Of a stretch of 64,000 bases of DNA, positions 37,440 through 43,758 are shown one piece after another. The stretch comes from Streptomyces clavuligerus (lineage in GTDB: Bacteria; Actinomycetota; Actinomycetes; Streptomycetales; Streptomycetaceae): NCBI RefSeq assembly GCF_005519465.1, contig NZ_CP027858.1, positions 558,001 through 622,000 of the forward strand. The letters are read 5' to 3'. The position numbers and the translations under genes were made by a program. The notes beneath the pieces were generated by a model. It was given only the letters and a program-made list of their open reading frames with translations. It searched no databases and was not told the origin of the DNA. Position 1 is the first letter of the stretch; every line of letters starts with the position of its first letter.

Positions 37440-38225
37440 CTACTTGCCGGTTTCCTTCTCGTACGCCTTCAGCACCTCGTCGGTGGGGCCGTCCATCAGC
37501 AGCTTGCCGTGCTCCAGCCAGAGCACCCGGTCACAGGTGTCCCGGATCGACTTGTTGCTGTGGCTGACCAGGAAGACGGTGCCCGCCTGCTTGCGCAGCT
37601 CCCGGATCCGCTGCTCGGAGCGGATCTGGAACTTGCGGTCACCGGTGGCCAGCGCCTCGTCGATCATCAGGACGTCGTGGTCCTTGGCCGCCGCGATGGA
37701 GAACCGCAGCCGGGCGCCCATGCCGGAGGAGTACGTGCGCATGGGCAGGGTGATGAAGTCGCCCTTCTCATTGATCCCGGAGAAGTCGACGATCGACTGG
37801 TAGCGCTCCCGGATCTGCTCCCGGGACATGCCCATGGCCAGACCGCCGAGGATCACGTTCCGTTCACCGGTGAGATCGTTCATCATGGCCGCGTTCACGC
37901 CGAGCAGCGAGGGCTGGCCGTCGGTGTAGACATGGCCGCGCTCGGTGGGCAGCAGCCCGGCTATGGCGCGCAGCAGGGTCGACTTGCCGGAGCCGTTGGT
38001 GCCGATCAGCCCGATGGCCTCGCCCCGGTAGGCGGTGAAGGAGACGCCCCGCACAGCGTGCACCTCGCGCATGCCGCGCTGCTTCTGGCCCTTCTTGCCG
38101 CGCAGGATGCGGCTGAGGGCCGCGGTGGCGCTGCCCTTGCCCCCGGCGCCGCCGCTCACCCGGTAGACGATGTGCACATCGTCGGCGATGACGGTGGGAA
38201 TCCGTCCGGTGTTGTTCTCAGCCAC
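37440..38225 (-). CDS. Teichoic-acid-type ABC exporter ATPase (TagH-like)
   Basis: The protein has 261 residues. GLIGTNGSGKSTLL is Walker A (about residue 76), YSSGMGARLRFS the signature and VLMIDEALATGD Walker B; this SSGM signature and EALA pattern mark polysaccharide and teichoic acid exporters (TagH, Wzt). It lacks the C-terminal substrate-recognition domain of long TagH or Wzt proteins. It starts at GTG inside the end of the permease gene (8-base overlap), so both are made together. It would power export of the product made by the genes upstream. Confidence 0.9.
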   Translation of the reverse strand: MAENNTGRIPTVIADDVHIVYRVSGGAGGKGSATAALSRILRGKKGQKQRGMREVHAVRGVSFTAYRGEAIGLIGTNGSGKSTLLRAIAGLLPTERGHVYTDGQPSLLGVNAAMMNDLTGERNVILGGLAMGMSREQIRERYQSIVDFSGINEKGDFITLPMRTYSSGMGARLRFSIAAAKDHDVLMIDEALATGDRKFQIRSEQRIRELRKQAGTVFLVSHSNKSIRDTCDRVLWLEHGKLLMDGPTDEVLKAYEKETGK

Positions 38226-39147
38226 GGCCGTACCGCTCCTCCGCCTTCCAGAAATACACAAAACCGAAGACGCCGATCAGCAGCGACCAGCCCAGGGCCA
38301 GCGCCCAGACATGGTCCGGCAGGTTCTCCGAGCCATAGCCGTCGATCAGCGCGAAGCGGATCAGGTCCATGTACACGGCGGCGGGGTTCCACTGGAGGAT
38401 GTCCGCGATCCACGCGGGCTTGTCCTTCAGCATCATCGGGATGGAGAACATCACACCGGACGCGTACATCCAGGTCCGCATGACGAACGGCATGAGCTGG
38501 GCCAGGTCGGGCGTCTTGCTGCCGAGCCGGGCCATGATCATCGCGAGCCCGGTGTTGAAGACGAACTGGAGCAGCAGCGCCGGGAGCACCAGCAGCCAGG
38601 AGAGCGAGGGGTAGCTGCCGAAGCCGACCACGATCGCCAGCAGCACGACCATCGAGAACAGGAGCTGCTGGAGCTGCTGGAGGGCGAACGAGATGGGCAG
38701 CGAGGCGCGCGGGAAATGCAGGGCCCGCACCAGGCCCAGATTGCCGGAGATCGCCCGTACGCCCGACATCACCGAACTCTGGGTGAAGGTGAAGACGAAC
38801 ACACCCGTCACCAGGAACGGCACGAAGACATCGTTCGAGAAACCGTTCTTCGTCCCGAGGATCAGACCGAAGATCAGGTAGTAGACCAGCGCGTTGAGCA
38901 GCGGGGTCACCACCTGCCAGAGCTGTCCCAGCTTGGCCTTGCTGTACTGAGCGGTCAGCTTGGCCTGCGAGAACGCCAGGATGAAGTGGCGCCGGCCCCA
39001 GAGCTGGCGGATGTACTCGACCAGACCCGGCCGGGCGCCGCTGACCGAAAGACCGTACTTCGCGGCGAGCTGCGCCGGGGACAGACCGTCGTCGGCCGAT
39101 GGCCGGGCGGTCGTCACGGTCGCTCCGTCGGGGGTTGTGTCACTCAC
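38218..39147 (-). CDS. Teichoic-acid-type ABC-2 permease (TagG-like)
   Basis: The protein has 309 residues. A cytoplasmic N-terminus of 45 residues leads to an amphipathic RRHFILAFSQAKL segment and about six membrane helices (for example LNALVYYLIFGLILG and PFLVTGVFVFTF); this is the ABC-2 export layout. WNPAAVYMDLIRFALI is typical of O-antigen and teichoic acid permeases. It pairs with the ATPase gene directly downstream. A 274-base gap separates it from the CDP-alcohol phosphotransferase gene. Confidence 0.92.
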   Translation of the reverse strand: MSDTTPDGATVTTARPSADDGLSPAQLAAKYGLSVSGARPGLVEYIRQLWGRRHFILAFSQAKLTAQYSKAKLGQLWQVVTPLLNALVYYLIFGLILGTKNGFSNDVFVPFLVTGVFVFTFTQSSVMSGVRAISGNLGLVRALHFPRASLPISFALQQLQQLLFSMVVLLAIVVGFGSYPSLSWLLVLPALLLQFVFNTGLAMIMARLGSKTPDLAQLMPFVMRTWMYASGVMFSIPMMLKDKPAWIADILQWNPAAVYMDLIRFALIDGYGSENLPDHVWALALGWSLLIGVFGFVYFWKAEERYGRG

Positions 39148-39302
39148 AAGTGGAAACTTTCGTCTTCGAGATGCGCGGCAGTGGGGGCGCGGCCCCGGGC
39201 GACGCCGGGAACCCGGAGTGCTCGGGGCCCCAGCTTGTCAGATCACCGGGGACCGGCCCAGTCGGTCCGGGGGCCTCGCGGTCCTCCCCGGCCCGGGGAC
39301 GG

Positions 39303-39421
39303 GCCCCTGAGAGGCATCTCCCGCCGGGCAGCGGGCCCGGCGGGGCGAGCCGGCCCCTCCGGACCGGGGAACAAGCCCATGAGAAGCATCTCCCGCCGGG
39401 CGGCGGGCCCGGCGGGGCGAG
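39303..39421. repeat. Two direct copies of a ~48-bp GC-rich unit
   Basis: A unit beginning TGAGAGGCATCTCCCGCCGGGC at 39308 recurs at 39380 with few changes, 72 bases later; each copy ends in GGGCCCGGCGGGGCGAG. The second copy touches the stop codon of the phosphotransferase gene upstream on the minus strand. Each copy can form a hairpin (GCCGGGC/GGCCCGGC-type pairing), so tandem terminators are possible. Confidence 0.6.
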
Positions 39422-40201
39422 TCACCGAAGCCTGCTGGAGGCCAGGATCGACACCAGGTGCAGCAGGGTCTGGAGCACGGCGATCCCGGCGAGGACCGCG
39501 ATCCCGAGGCGGGTGAAGAACAGGTCCCCCTGGACCAGGTCGAGCACCGCCATCACCAGGATGAAGAGGCTGGCCTCGATACCGCCGACGAGCCGGTGGA
39601 ACTTGAGCGCCGCAGCGGCCCGCCGGGCCAGCGCCAGACCGGAGGAGCGGGGCACGGACGCCTCGTCCTTGACGGCGGGCAGTCCGCTGCGGGAGCGGGC
39701 CACGTCCACCAGATCGGTCTCGGCCTTGATCAGGATCGCGCCGAGCGCGGCGAGGGTGCCCAGGAAGGCCCACAGCCACGCGGGGTCGCCCGCGCCGAAG
39801 AGGTCGGCGCCCCGCAGCCCGAAGCCGATCAGCAGCGCCGCCTCGCAGAGGTAGTGGCCGATCCGGTCGAGGTAGACCCCGGTGATCGAGGTCTGGCCGC
39901 GCCAGCGGGCCACCTCGCCGTCGACGCAGTCGAGCAGCAGATAGATCTGGAAGAGCACCGCCGCGAGGATCGCCCCGGTCAGCCCCGGGATCAGCAGGGC
40001 GGCGCCGCCTATGACCCCCACCACGATCATGAGGTAGGTGAGCTGGTTGGGGGTGATCCGGGTGTTGACCAGATACGGGTCGCAGCGCAGCGAGATCTCG
40101 CGCATGTACAGGCGGCCGGCCCAGTGCTCGCCGCTGCGCCGGTCCTTCACGCCCTCGGGGTGGACGACGGGGCGGAGCTCAGCTACGGATGGTCTTGGCA
40201 T
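39422..40201 (-). CDS. CDP-alcohol phosphotransferase with altered motif
   Basis: The protein has 259 residues and about six membrane helices. The family motif is present as DCVDGEVAR, eight residues, G, three residues, D, three residues, but its last Asp is His (LDRIGHYL, His near residue 117). The fourth Asp normally acts as the base that activates the acceptor alcohol, so this change matters. The family transfers a phospho-alcohol from CDP-alcohol to a second alcohol in the membrane. The ATG overlaps the dehydrogenase gene by 23 bases and lacks a clear ribosome binding site. Confidence 0.85.
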   Translation of the reverse strand: MPRPSVAELRPVVHPEGVKDRRSGEHWAGRLYMREISLRCDPYLVNTRITPNQLTYLMIVVGVIGGAALLIPGLTGAILAAVLFQIYLLLDCVDGEVARWRGQTSITGVYLDRIGHYLCEAALLIGFGLRGADLFGAGDPAWLWAFLGTLAALGAILIKAETDLVDVARSRSGLPAVKDEASVPRSSGLALARRAAAALKFHRLVGGIEASLFILVMAVLDLVQGDLFFTRLGIAVLAGIAVLQTLLHLVSILASSRLR

Positions 40202-41240
40202 AGTCGGCGTACGCGTCCCTGATCTGGTCGGTGGTGAGGTCGAGGTGTTCGAGGATGGTGAAGCGGCCGGGCCGGGTCCGCGGCGCGTACTCCACGGCGC
40301 GGATGAACTCGTCGACGCCGAAACCGATGTCCTCGGGGAGCACCGGGAGCCCGTGGCGGCGCAGCACATCGGCGAAGAGGCCCGCCTGCTCCGGGGCGCC
40401 GCGCAGATGCATGGCGAACGCGGCACCGAGGCCGACCTGCTCGCCGTGGCTGGCCGCGCGCTGCGGGTACAGCAGGTCGAAGGCGTGGCTGATCTCGTGG
40501 CAGGCGCCGGAGGACGGCCGGGTGTCCCCGCTGATCGACATCGCGATCCCGGTGAGCACCAGGGCCTCGGCGAGCACGATCAGGAACTCGTCGTCCCCGA
40601 CACCGCCGGGGTGGCGCAGCACGGACTCGCCCGCGGTGCGGGCCATGGCGGCGGCGAGGCCGTCGACGTTCTCCCCGTTGATCCGCTGGGACAGCTCCCA
40701 GTCCGCGAGGGCGGAGAGGTTGGAGACGGTGTCGCCGATGCCGGAGCGGATGTAGCGGGCGGGTGCGTCGCGGATCACATCGAGGTCGATGACCATGGCG
40801 ATCGGCGAGGGCACCCCGTAGGAGCCGCGCCCGTTGTCGTTGTCCAGGGTGGCGACCGGGGAGCAGATGCCGTCGTGCGCCAGGTTCGTGGCGACCGACA
40901 CCATCGGCAGCCCGACGCGGGCCGCCGCGTACTTGGTGACGTCGATGATCTTGCCGCCGCCGAGGGCGACGACCGCGTCGTAGTGGCGGCCCCGGATCTC
41001 GTCGGCGAGCCGGACGGCCGCGTCGATGGTGCCGTCGGCGACCTCGTACCAGTCGGCTCCGGGCAGCAGCGGGGCCAGCCTGGTCCGCAGCGCCCGGCCC
41101 GAGCCGCCGCTGAGGGCGACGGCGAGCTTGCCGGAGGCGGAGATCCGCTGGTCGGCGAGGAGACCGGCCAGATCGTCCAGCGCTCCCGACCGGATGTCGA
41201 CGACGACCGGCGACGGGATCAGCCGGGTCAGTACTGGCAC
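40179..41240 (-). CDS. sn-glycerol-1-phosphate dehydrogenase-like enzyme
   Basis: The enzyme has 353 residues in the iron-containing alcohol dehydrogenase superfamily. GGGKIIDVTKYAA is the nucleotide-binding motif, TNLAHDGICSPVA resembles the HDGIASP signature of glycerol-1-phosphate dehydrogenases, and TRPSSGACHEISHAFD plus SHGEQVG supply the metal-binding His residues in that family's order. Such enzymes reduce dihydroxyacetone phosphate to sn-glycerol 1-phosphate, as EgsA in archaea and AraM in Bacillus. It overlaps the nucleotidyltransferase gene by 13 bases. The exact polyol product is inferred. Confidence 0.85.
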   Translation of the reverse strand: MPVLTRLIPSPVVVDIRSGALDDLAGLLADQRISASGKLAVALSGGSGRALRTRLAPLLPGADWYEVADGTIDAAVRLADEIRGRHYDAVVALGGGKIIDVTKYAAARVGLPMVSVATNLAHDGICSPVATLDNDNGRGSYGVPSPIAMVIDLDVIRDAPARYIRSGIGDTVSNLSALADWELSQRINGENVDGLAAAMARTAGESVLRHPGGVGDDEFLIVLAEALVLTGIAMSISGDTRPSSGACHEISHAFDLLYPQRAASHGEQVGLGAAFAMHLRGAPEQAGLFADVLRRHGLPVLPEDIGFGVDEFIRAVEYAPRTRPGRFTILEHLDLTTDQIRDAYADYAKTIRS

Positions 41241-41965
41241 GCGATCTCACGGCCCTTCGCGAGGTCGTCGTGGTTGTCGATCTCGACCCAGCGGATGTCC
41301 CCGATGGGGGCCACGTCGACGGTGTGGCCGCGGTCGACCAGCTCCTGGTAGCCGTCCTCGTAGTAGAGGTCGGGGTCGCGCTCGAAGGTCGCCTTCAGCG
41401 CGTCGGCCAGCTCCGCGGCGGCCTCGGGCTCGATCAGGGTGACGCCGATGTACTCGCCGGTCGCGCCCGCGGGGTCCATCAGCTTGGTGATCCGGCGCAC
41501 ACCGCGGCCGTCCGCGCAGATGACCTTCATCTCCTCGTCGGCGAGGGACTTCACCGTGTCGAGAGCGAGGATGATCTTCTTGCCGTCCCCGCGCGCGGCC
41601 AGCAGGGTGCGCTCGACGGAGACCGGGTGGACGGTGTCGCCGTTGGCGAGGATGACGCCCCGCTTCAGGACGTCACGGGCGCACCACAGGGAGTAGGCGT
41701 TGTTCCACTCCTCGGCCTTGTCGTTCTCGACCAGGGTGAGCTTGATCCCGTAGCGGGCCTCCAGGGCGGCCTGGCGCTCGTACACGGCCTCCTTGCGGTA
41801 GCCGACGACGATCGCGGCCTCGGTGAGGCCCACCTCGGCGAAGTTCGCCAGGGTGAGGTCGAGCACGGTCTTGTCGCCGTCCACGGGCACGAGGGCCTTC
41901 GGCAGGGTGTCGGTGTAGGGACGCAGACGGCGTCCGGCACCGGCGGCCAGTACGAGGCCGATCAT
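41228..41965 (-). CDS. LicC-like nucleotidyltransferase
   Basis: The enzyme has 245 residues. LVLAAGAGRRLRPYT is the nucleotide-binding loop and LPKALVPVDG its continuation; WNNAYSLWCARDVL and ILANGDTVHP follow, and IRWVEIDNHDDL near the end matches phosphocholine cytidylyltransferase (LicC) relatives. It probably activates a phospho-alcohol with CTP. AAGGAGAA precedes the ATG, which overlaps the stop of the gene before it in ATGA. Given the neighbours, CDP-glycerol or another CDP-polyol is the likely product; the nucleotide is not certain. Confidence 0.87.
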   Translation of the reverse strand: MIGLVLAAGAGRRLRPYTDTLPKALVPVDGDKTVLDLTLANFAEVGLTEAAIVVGYRKEAVYERQAALEARYGIKLTLVENDKAEEWNNAYSLWCARDVLKRGVILANGDTVHPVSVERTLLAARGDGKKIILALDTVKSLADEEMKVICADGRGVRRITKLMDPAGATGEYIGVTLIEPEAAAELADALKATFERDPDLYYEDGYQELVDRGHTVDVAPIGDIRWVEIDNHDDLAKGREIACQY

Positions 41966-43758
41966 GCGAGTTCTCCTTCGTCGTGTACGGCGGGTGCCCC
42001 GGAGGACACCCAGAAGCGGACGCTCTCCACCAGCACCACGAGCGCGACGGCGGCGGCCAGGGCGGTGAGCGCCCAGCGGAAGTCCGGGGCGGCGACGAGG
42101 GCGGCCAGCAGGGTGACGGCCAGGACTCGGCCCTCGTGCCCGCCGATCACCCGCACCAGCCACCGGGGCGGCGCTCCGGTGCCTCCCCGGATGCGGTAGA
42201 CCGTGTCGTAGTGATGGTAGGCGACCGCGGCCACCAGCCCGAAGGCCGCCGGGAGCGCGCCCGGGGCGTCCGCGCGGGCGGCGAGCGCCAGGACCGTGCC
42301 GTACTCGGCGGCCCGGAAGAACGGGGGGACCAGCCAGTCGAGGGCGCCCTTCAGCGGGCGGGCGACGGCGATCCCCGAGGTCAGGACGTACACCGCGGCG
42401 GCGGCGAGCGGCCAGGGGGAGCCGAAGTCGGCGAGGGCGGCCGTCGCGGTCACCGCGACGGCGCCCAGCAGGGCGATGACGGGGGCGGCCAGGGCGGGCA
42501 GCCTGCGGGCGAGCGGGGCGGTGACCCGGGCGACGGCCCCGGCGAGCGGGCCGGAGTCCGCGAGGTCGGCGAGGGCCTGTGCGGCGCGGTCCGTCCGCAC
42601 GGCCTTGCGGGTCACCGAGCGCAGCAGCCGCCCGGCGGTGGTGTAGCAGGCGGCGAAGCCGCAGCCGATGAGCAGGGCCCAGAAGACGATCCGGGGCGTG
42701 GTCAGGGCCGTCAGCACGGCGATCATGGCCCAGCGCTCGCCGATCGGCAGCACGATCATGCGGCGGACCCAGACCGTCCAGCCCACGCTGTCGAGCCGAC
42801 CGGAGAGGGCGGCGGTGGGGCTGGTGTTGGCGACGGCGTCATGGTTGGCCTCGTTGAACGAGAAGTCCACGACATGCCGGCAGGTCTGGAGCACCATCGC
42901 GCCGAGCGCCAGGGCCCAGACGTCGTCGCCGCCCCGGGCGGCCCCGAGGGCGAGGCCCGCGTAGTAGGCGTACTCCTTGGCGCGGTCGAAGGTGGCGTCC
43001 AGCCAGGCGCCCATCGTCGAGTACTGGAGGGAGTAGCGGGCGAGCTGCCCGTCCGTGCAGTCCAGGACGAAGGAGACGATCAGGAGCACCCCGGCGGCGA
43101 CATAGCCGCCGCGGGTGCCGGTGGCCGCGCAGCCCGCCGCGATCAGCGCGGTGAACAGGGAGGCCGTGGTGACCTGGTTGGGGGTGAGGCCCCGGCGGGC
43201 GCACCAGCGCGCGATGTAGCGCGAGTAGGGGCTGACGCCGTACGTGGTGAAGAAGCCGTCGCGGGCCTTGACCGCGGAGCGCAGCCGCACGGCCTCGTCG
43301 TCGACGGCGGCGACGGCGGCGACGGCCTCCTCGCGGGACCCGTCGTCGCCGGGCACGGTCGCGACCAGGGAGCCCAGCTCCGGGTGGTGCACGGCGGTCC
43401 CGGAGTCGGCCAGGGCCCCGGCGAGGGTGTCGGGCAGCACCCCGGCCCCGGCGGGGCCGGTGGCGGCCCCGGCGAGGGCGCGGGTCAGCGCCCCGCGGGC
43501 CTCGGGGCGCGCGGTGAGCGCGCCGGGGACGGCGGCGGCCGGGAAGCGGGGGTCGGTGAGGGCGAGCCGCAGCGCGTGGACGTGGCCCACGAAGCGGGTG
43601 TCCACGACGGCGACCCGGTCGGCCGCGGGGGCGGCGGCGATCAGCGCGGCGGTCTCCTCGGCGCCCGGGGAGACCCGTACGTCGAAGCCCAGCGACCGCA
43701 GATCGCCCTCAAGCGACGAACCGGGCACGGGCGGACCGGTGAGGATGGCGGTCGACAG
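41962..43758 (-). CDS. CDP-alcohol phosphotransferase fused to extra domains (DUF5941-like), CTG start
   Basis: The protein has 598 residues: a soluble alpha/beta N-terminal domain (about 1-165), a CDP-alcohol phosphotransferase domain whose motif is complete (DCTDGQLAR, eight residues, G, AWL, D, ATF, D), and a C-terminal membrane region with several helices (DUF5941-like). The frame reads LSTAILTGPPVPGSSLEGD after an in-frame TGA three codons before the CTG. AAGGAG lies nine bases before that CTG; the next possible start, GTG at 43728, has no site. So CTG is probably the start. It heads the run of genes that ends with the TagGH-like exporter. Confidence 0.83.
   Translation of the reverse strand: MSTAILTGPPVPGSSLEGDLRSLGFDVRVSPGAEETAALIAAAPAADRVAVVDTRFVGHVHALRLALTDPRFPAAAVPGALTARPEARGALTRALAGAATGPAGAGVLPDTLAGALADSGTAVHHPELGSLVATVPGDDGSREEAVAAVAAVDDEAVRLRSAVKARDGFFTTYGVSPYSRYIARWCARRGLTPNQVTTASLFTALIAAGCAATGTRGGYVAAGVLLIVSFVLDCTDGQLARYSLQYSTMGAWLDATFDRAKEYAYYAGLALGAARGGDDVWALALGAMVLQTCRHVVDFSFNEANHDAVANTSPTAALSGRLDSVGWTVWVRRMIVLPIGERWAMIAVLTALTTPRIVFWALLIGCGFAACYTTAGRLLRSVTRKAVRTDRAAQALADLADSGPLAGAVARVTAPLARRLPALAAPVIALLGAVAVTATAALADFGSPWPLAAAAVYVLTSGIAVARPLKGALDWLVPPFFRAAEYGTVLALAARADAPGALPAAFGLVAAVAYHHYDTVYRIRGGTGAPPRWLVRVIGGHEGRVLAVTLLAALVAAPDFRWALTALAAAVALVVLVESVRFWVSSGAPAVHDEGELA

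Follow-up and report, generated by a model that had tools for sequence, protein, structure and literature searches.

Archaeal EgsA and Bacillus AraM are sn-glycerol-1-phosphate dehydrogenases, which form the glycerol phosphate enantiomer associated mainly with archaea. AF2299 of Archaeoglobus is a CDP-alcohol phosphotransferase (CDP-AP) with a hydrophilic pocket to which CDP-glycerol binds (PMC4634129). Wall teichoic acid synthesis uses CDP-sn-3-glycerol, and type I lipoteichoic acid (LTA) is built of sn-Gro-1-P units derived from phosphatidylglycerol (PMC8341164). Streptomyces and other actinobacteria contain polyglycerolphosphate LTA but have no clear LtaS orthologue, and it has been proposed that the machinery for wall teichoic acid is shared (PMC3196553). 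Here, we describe a six-gene cluster in Streptomyces clavuligerus (GCF_005519465.1, NZ_CP027858.1), at positions 37440 to 43758 of a 64,000-nt stretch that we call the window (positions 558,001 to 622,000, forward strand). Clusters of this kind occur in many soil actinobacteria. We give roughly even odds to the reading that the genes specify the synthesis of CDP-sn-1-glycerol in the cytosol and the consumption of this donor at the membrane, with an exported glycoconjugate as product; the reactions, stereochemistry, acceptor and product are all predicted from homology, conserved neighbourhoods, motif states and predicted folds.

Relationship of the cluster to described enzymes

Every enzyme of the cluster is a member of a known family, and Pfam matches were obtained for all six genes. 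Four of these encode enzymes or their relatives (A to D) and two an exporter; the preliminary description of this DNA had miscounted five enzymes or carriers. All lie on the minus strand, with overlaps of 4 (A/B), 13 (B/C) and 23 (C/D) bases, a gap of 274 bases between D and TagG, and an overlap of 8 bases between TagG and TagH, in exact agreement with that description. The Pfam match for every gene, together with the recurrence of the order in distant actinobacteria, makes the set more than a chance association. The cluster genes of S. coelicolor are, we presume, SCO6753-SCO6757.

Gene C (40179..41240) encodes an sn-glycerol-1-phosphate dehydrogenase-like enzyme. In a tree of 52 rows (four PDB rows are partial, and L216, L217 and L074 were left out), C fell with archaeal EgsA (4rgq, 5fb3), 9h4x, 3ce9 and two rows that we label AraM-like, on the side opposite to six GldA-like rows (support 100/100), and within an actinobacterial clade of 27 rows (98/100). 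The phylogenetic test put forward in the preliminary description thus separates C from the glycerol dehydrogenases, and the HDGICSP and SSGACHEISH motifs noted there are indeed located in C. The RPxSGxxH signature and the D/H/H metal-site positions are common to C, 4rgq, 5fb3 and 9h4x; the signature is absent from the GldA-like rows and present in 120/120 C homologues among the matches listed. The best NCBIfam family for C is glycerol-1-phosphate dehydrogenase (G1PDH), and its PDB matches include the G1PDH 4rgq (E 7.2e-39); the top match, 3ce9, is named a glycerol dehydrogenase yet groups with the G1PDHs in the tree. C is therefore like EgsA and AraM in its side of the tree, signature and metal-site positions, but unlike them in forming part of a separate actinobacterial clade, in scoring below the NCBIfam cut-off and in lying beside a cytidylyltransferase and CDP-APs. 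In one genome a second, lone copy of C with 72% identity (L074, G334:C1:856393-857448) adjoins gene starts that, by eye, resemble obg and the L27/L21 ribosomal genes.

Gene B (41228..41965) encodes a LicC-like nucleotidyltransferase, as first described (PF00483; solved LicC structure 1jyk, E 1.2e-13), which we propose to be a CTP:sn-glycerol-1-phosphate cytidylyltransferase. At two loci in genomes of a different actinobacterial family (L055 and L057), B-C is next to a GDPD gene, and at L055 also to a homologue of CDP-glycerol glycerophosphotransferase (PF04464, E 1.9e-93). Judged from these neighbourhoods, B-C appears to be a portable module. CDP-glycerol as the donor is supported by the PF04464 neighbour at L055 and by the CDP-glycerol bound to AF2299.

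Conservation of the cluster and the GT2 gap

C was matched (E of 1e-10 or lower) in 94 of the 396 genomes of a phylum sample, including 12/12 of the genus, although many of the weaker matches are GldA- or AraM-like. The order A, B, C, D, GT2, TagG, TagH was found in 8/8 Streptomyces neighbourhoods (L066-L073); among distant loci, L077, L079 and L080 contain all seven genes, and L085 all except A. A scan of named genomes found at least 571 relatives, and in the best 80 loci B adjoins C in all 80; the D family is present in 31, DUF5941 (the C-terminal domain of A) in 31 and GT2 in 28. A CDP-AP other than D is present in 70 of these loci, and one of either kind in 72. The 80 include loci from Micromonosporaceae, Streptosporangiaceae, Thermomonosporaceae, Nocardioidaceae, Thermoleophilia and Nitriliruptorales.

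DUF5941 was detected in 28/28 genus genomes and 91/121 family genomes, in some as fragments only. We searched 30 family genomes (19 of the 30 without a DUF5941 match, and 11 with a weak or partial match), and 28 of them keep C. In eight neighbourhoods from these 28 genomes, A is absent (L122, L123, L125, L128), fragmentary (L124, L127, L129) or split (L126), and all eight retain B, C, D, GT2 and TagG together, with TagH adjacent in five. Both genomes without C also lack D, and the four C-bearing genomes tested have D. The constant module is B-C, A is dispensable, and D is the conserved phosphotransferase. The gene order, proposed earlier as a test, is thus conserved in Streptomyces and in distant actinobacteria, but its constant part is B-C alone.

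The window contains no match to the GT2 orthologue, so this strain is without a gene usual in the set. Of 81 genus genomes, 75 have an orthologue that is full-length (79% identity or more) and three a partial one (G439, G565, G574); the remaining three, namely the window's genome, G422 and G577, have paralogues only, the latter two being assemblies of at least 250 contigs. Relocation of GT2 within the strain was rejected, as its best match has 62% identity, within the paralogue class of about 56-66% common among congeners. The D-TagG gap (39148..39421), where congeners have GT2, holds strong inverted repeats and a 72-base tandem repeat whose two copies are 78% alike; it is possibly a deletion scar.

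The exporter genes encode a TagG/Wzm-like ABC-2 permease (38218..39147; PF01061) and a TagH/Wzt-like ATPase (37440..38225; PF00005), the latter scoring 173.6 bits against an NCBIfam TagH cut-off of 320. The TagGH exporter of the preliminary description is accordingly best termed TagGH-like: the pair is below the NCBIfam cut-offs and not always adjacent, and some genomes have a close TagH elsewhere. Three genomes without an adjacent TagH carry one of 73-76% identity at another site, and in a Streptomyces genome whose cluster is complete, a further TagH with 81% identity to that of the window lies outside that cluster (G128:C1:5753616-5754374). These copies suggest that export may be shared. G467, which lacks C and D, still has a TagH.

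Upstream of A, galE and a cation efflux gene are divergent, and a hopanoid cluster with HpnC first lies downstream of the exporter genes. Squalene synthase genes adjoin the cluster in Streptomyces. An obligatory hopanoid link was rejected, since hopanoid genes do not adjoin the cluster in either L122 or L123, and HpnC had no match in the distant loci L075-L085.

The synteny of this region is already in print. PMC13118837 reports synteny and duplication counts across Streptomyces for a region that it ties to teichoic acid biosynthesis, and its section 3.10 lists crtB, tagH, tagG, araM, a CDP-AP, GT2 and a nucleotidyltransferase; we saw neither reactions nor an assignment for DUF5941 there, nor any mention of the motif loss. 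Our search of the open-licence PMC literature likewise turned up no account of the cluster's reactions or product, of the motif loss or of what DUF5941 is, and no paper on CDP-sn-1-glycerol or a glycerol-1-phosphate cytidylyltransferase. Within that search, the earlier label "undescribed" holds for mechanism and product.

The phosphotransferase relatives D and A

As the preliminary description had it, the cluster contains a complete and an altered CDP-AP: A carries the complete set of four Asp in the signature D1xxD2GxxAR...GxxxD3xxxD4, and D has three (DCVDGEVAR...GVYLDRIGH). The two differ in conservation: A is dispensable, and D, which lacks the catalytic Asp, is the conserved one. D (39422..40201) matches PF01066 with 42.7 bits (gathering score 22), and its best PDB matches are AF2299 (E 1.5e-13) and IPCT-DIPPS, both from Archaeoglobus. 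The fourth position is His in the window, in 31/31 named loci, in 120/120 homologues among the matches listed, and in 28/28 rows (21 genomes) with a lost or broken A. It is Ala in 11/11 other sampled Streptomyces genomes, all of which have DUF5941. This pattern is only suggestive of a tie between Ala and the presence of A; as the window and its close homologues have His, Ala marks one lineage. In Micromonosporaceae and loci like theirs, the four-Asp CDP-AP located downstream of C has kept the fourth Asp in 39/39 cases; at two Micromonosporaceae loci, B-C is followed by this different enzyme (L153:11052-11768, L134:11037-11762).

Gene A (41962..43758) encodes an N-terminal cytidylyltransferase-like domain, a CDP-AP core and a C-terminal DUF5941 domain. 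Its start is most likely CTG at 43758, judging from AAGGAG nine bases upstream and an in-frame stop just before, the alternative being GTG at 43728; the end of the gene chosen in the preliminary description is therefore the best-supported start. CTG is rare as a start codon. Residues 1-160 (43279..43758) have the cytidylyltransferase-like fold, which is reduced in Streptomyces. Asp is kept in 120/120 A homologues among the matches listed, and at the fourth position in 29 of the 31 copies upstream of C in the best 80 named loci. At the remaining two loci, L202 and L203 of Actinomadura, the CDP-AP-like match upstream of B lacks DxxDGxxAR and D has His, so that, by their motifs, neither phosphotransferase seems to have a full catalytic set.

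DUF5941 (residues 391-598; 41965..42588) was assigned to the CDP-AP fold by comparison of predicted folds, using VIA-align over Foldseek's list. Alignment of DUF5941 with CDP-AP by hhalign paired the expected helices, but with E values of 0.046 and 0.062 and a probability of about 1%. The catalytic DxxDGxxAR motif was found in 0/25 and 0/12 DUF5941 rows, and a second such motif in 0/120 homologues among the matches listed. We propose that this half of A is a catalytically empty pseudo-CDP-AP partner. No literature on DUF5941 was found among open-licence PMC papers. A shares the layout of a cytidylyltransferase-like domain and CDP-AP core with AF2299 and IPCT-DIPPS; the cluster differs from them in the added pseudo-CDP-AP domain of A, in the missing catalytic Asp of D and in having B as a separate gene.

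Proposed product and competing explanations

In the pathway that we propose, C would reduce dihydroxyacetone phosphate to sn-glycerol 1-phosphate in the cytosol, and B would combine this with CTP to form CDP-sn-1-glycerol. The membrane CDP-APs (D, and in Streptomyces also A) would pass glycerol phosphate on to an acceptor bound to the membrane, GT2 (absent here and perhaps replaced by a paralogue) would add sugar, and the TagGH-like exporter would carry out the product, a lipoglycan- or LTA-like sn-glycerol-1-phosphate glycoconjugate. An sn-1 donor activated by a nucleotide would add a third route to those of wall teichoic acid and type I LTA.

Several observations weigh against this pathway. 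D lacks the fourth Asp, the proposed catalytic base of CDP-APs, with His or Ala in every D-family row, and replacement of this residue by Asn in a mycobacterial CDP-AP nearly abolished activity (PMC4634129, PMC9385802). As D is the phosphotransferase that stays longest with B-C in Streptomycetaceae, it is the base-less one that persists there. D may rely on a different base, act on a phosphate acceptor or partner a catalytic subunit; where A is gone, the first two fit better. C falls below the NCBIfam PRK00843 equivalog cut-off (234.1 against 413 bits). LicC-family enzymes use phosphocholine, inositol 1-phosphate or phosphoglycerate, and no product was seen when CpgD, a relative of B, was given glycerol 1-phosphate (PMC12275187); the substrate of B is thus not fixed by homology. 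TagG is present in 7/80 and TagH in 8/80 named loci, and Micromonosporaceae have B-C and a CDP-AP without GT2 and, as a rule, without an exporter alongside. The present strain, without a GT2 orthologue, implies that the GT2 step is dispensable or done by another gene.

It is unlikely that the product is a membrane lipid, formed by A or the Micromonosporaceae-type enzyme from CDP-glycerol and a lipid alcohol (diacylglycerol or polyprenol) as by choline phosphotransferases, and then modified and moved by GT2 and the exporter. A is lost where B, C, D, GT2 and TagG stay, the Streptomyces sets are accompanied by a polymer-type exporter and GT2, and a fold in common proves no function (A has about 10% identity to the eukaryotic choline/ethanolamine phosphotransferases).

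That C acts on a free polyol or another keto-phosphate, with a different CDP-alcohol as the product of B, is quite unlikely: the tree, the RPxSGxxH signature and the PF04464 neighbour of B-C at L055 argue for glycerol 1-phosphate, whereas the score below the G1PDH equivalog cut-off and the name of the top PDB match, despite its place on the G1PDH side, leave room for another substrate.

It is very unlikely that B-C serve TagF-type polymerases of wall teichoic acid by supplying their CDP-glycerol, in which case the exporter would be that of wall teichoic acid. PF04464 is found in 57/61 genus genomes, a tally that counts the window's genome (E 3.2e-5) as over the cut-off, while TagD matches reach the cut-off in 0/61; one genome has the 81% identical TagH outside the cluster, and PMC13118837 links the region to teichoic acid. 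However, wall polymers use the sn-3 donor (PMC8341164), and D and A would be left unexplained. The cluster shares with TagD-TagF-TagGH a CDP-glycerol-type donor (predicted here) and the kind of exporter, but differs in its phosphotransferase family and in the predicted, opposite glycerol enantiomer. In the window's genome, TagD (TIGR01518) has no match and PF04464 a single weak one, yet the cluster is kept, which makes the feeding of a typical TagF unlikely here.

Least probable is a soluble phosphodiester stress solute (di-glycerol or glycero-inositol phosphate) such as related archaeal CDP-APs make, for although AF2299 and IPCT-DIPPS, the nearest solved relatives, use soluble donors and match the layout of A, the Streptomyces sets include GT2 and an exporter, and we know of no need for such a solute in mesophiles.

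The exported sn-glycerol-1-phosphate glycoconjugate that we favour would make CDP-sn-1-glycerol, the archaeal-handed form of activated glycerol, a predicted metabolite, with the enantiomer opposite to that of the wall teichoic acid precursor. The proposed catalytic base is missing from a widespread CDP-AP subfamily, which provides a natural test of the accepted mechanism, and DUF5941 is placed in the CDP-AP fold, as a partner devoid of the catalytic motif. With DUF5941 as a marker in 28/28 sampled genus genomes, knockouts in laboratory Streptomyces should be straightforward. We speculate further, as a rather doubtful extension, that CDP-sn-1-glycerol is a standing actinobacterial metabolite from which an Asp-less CDP-AP, in some lineages with a pseudo-CDP-AP, builds LTA or a related lipoglycan; if true, this would account for the lipid-anchored glycerol phosphate polymers of LtaS-less actinobacteria. 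The cluster thus offers candidate genes for how Streptomyces and other actinobacteria may make these polymers without LtaS.

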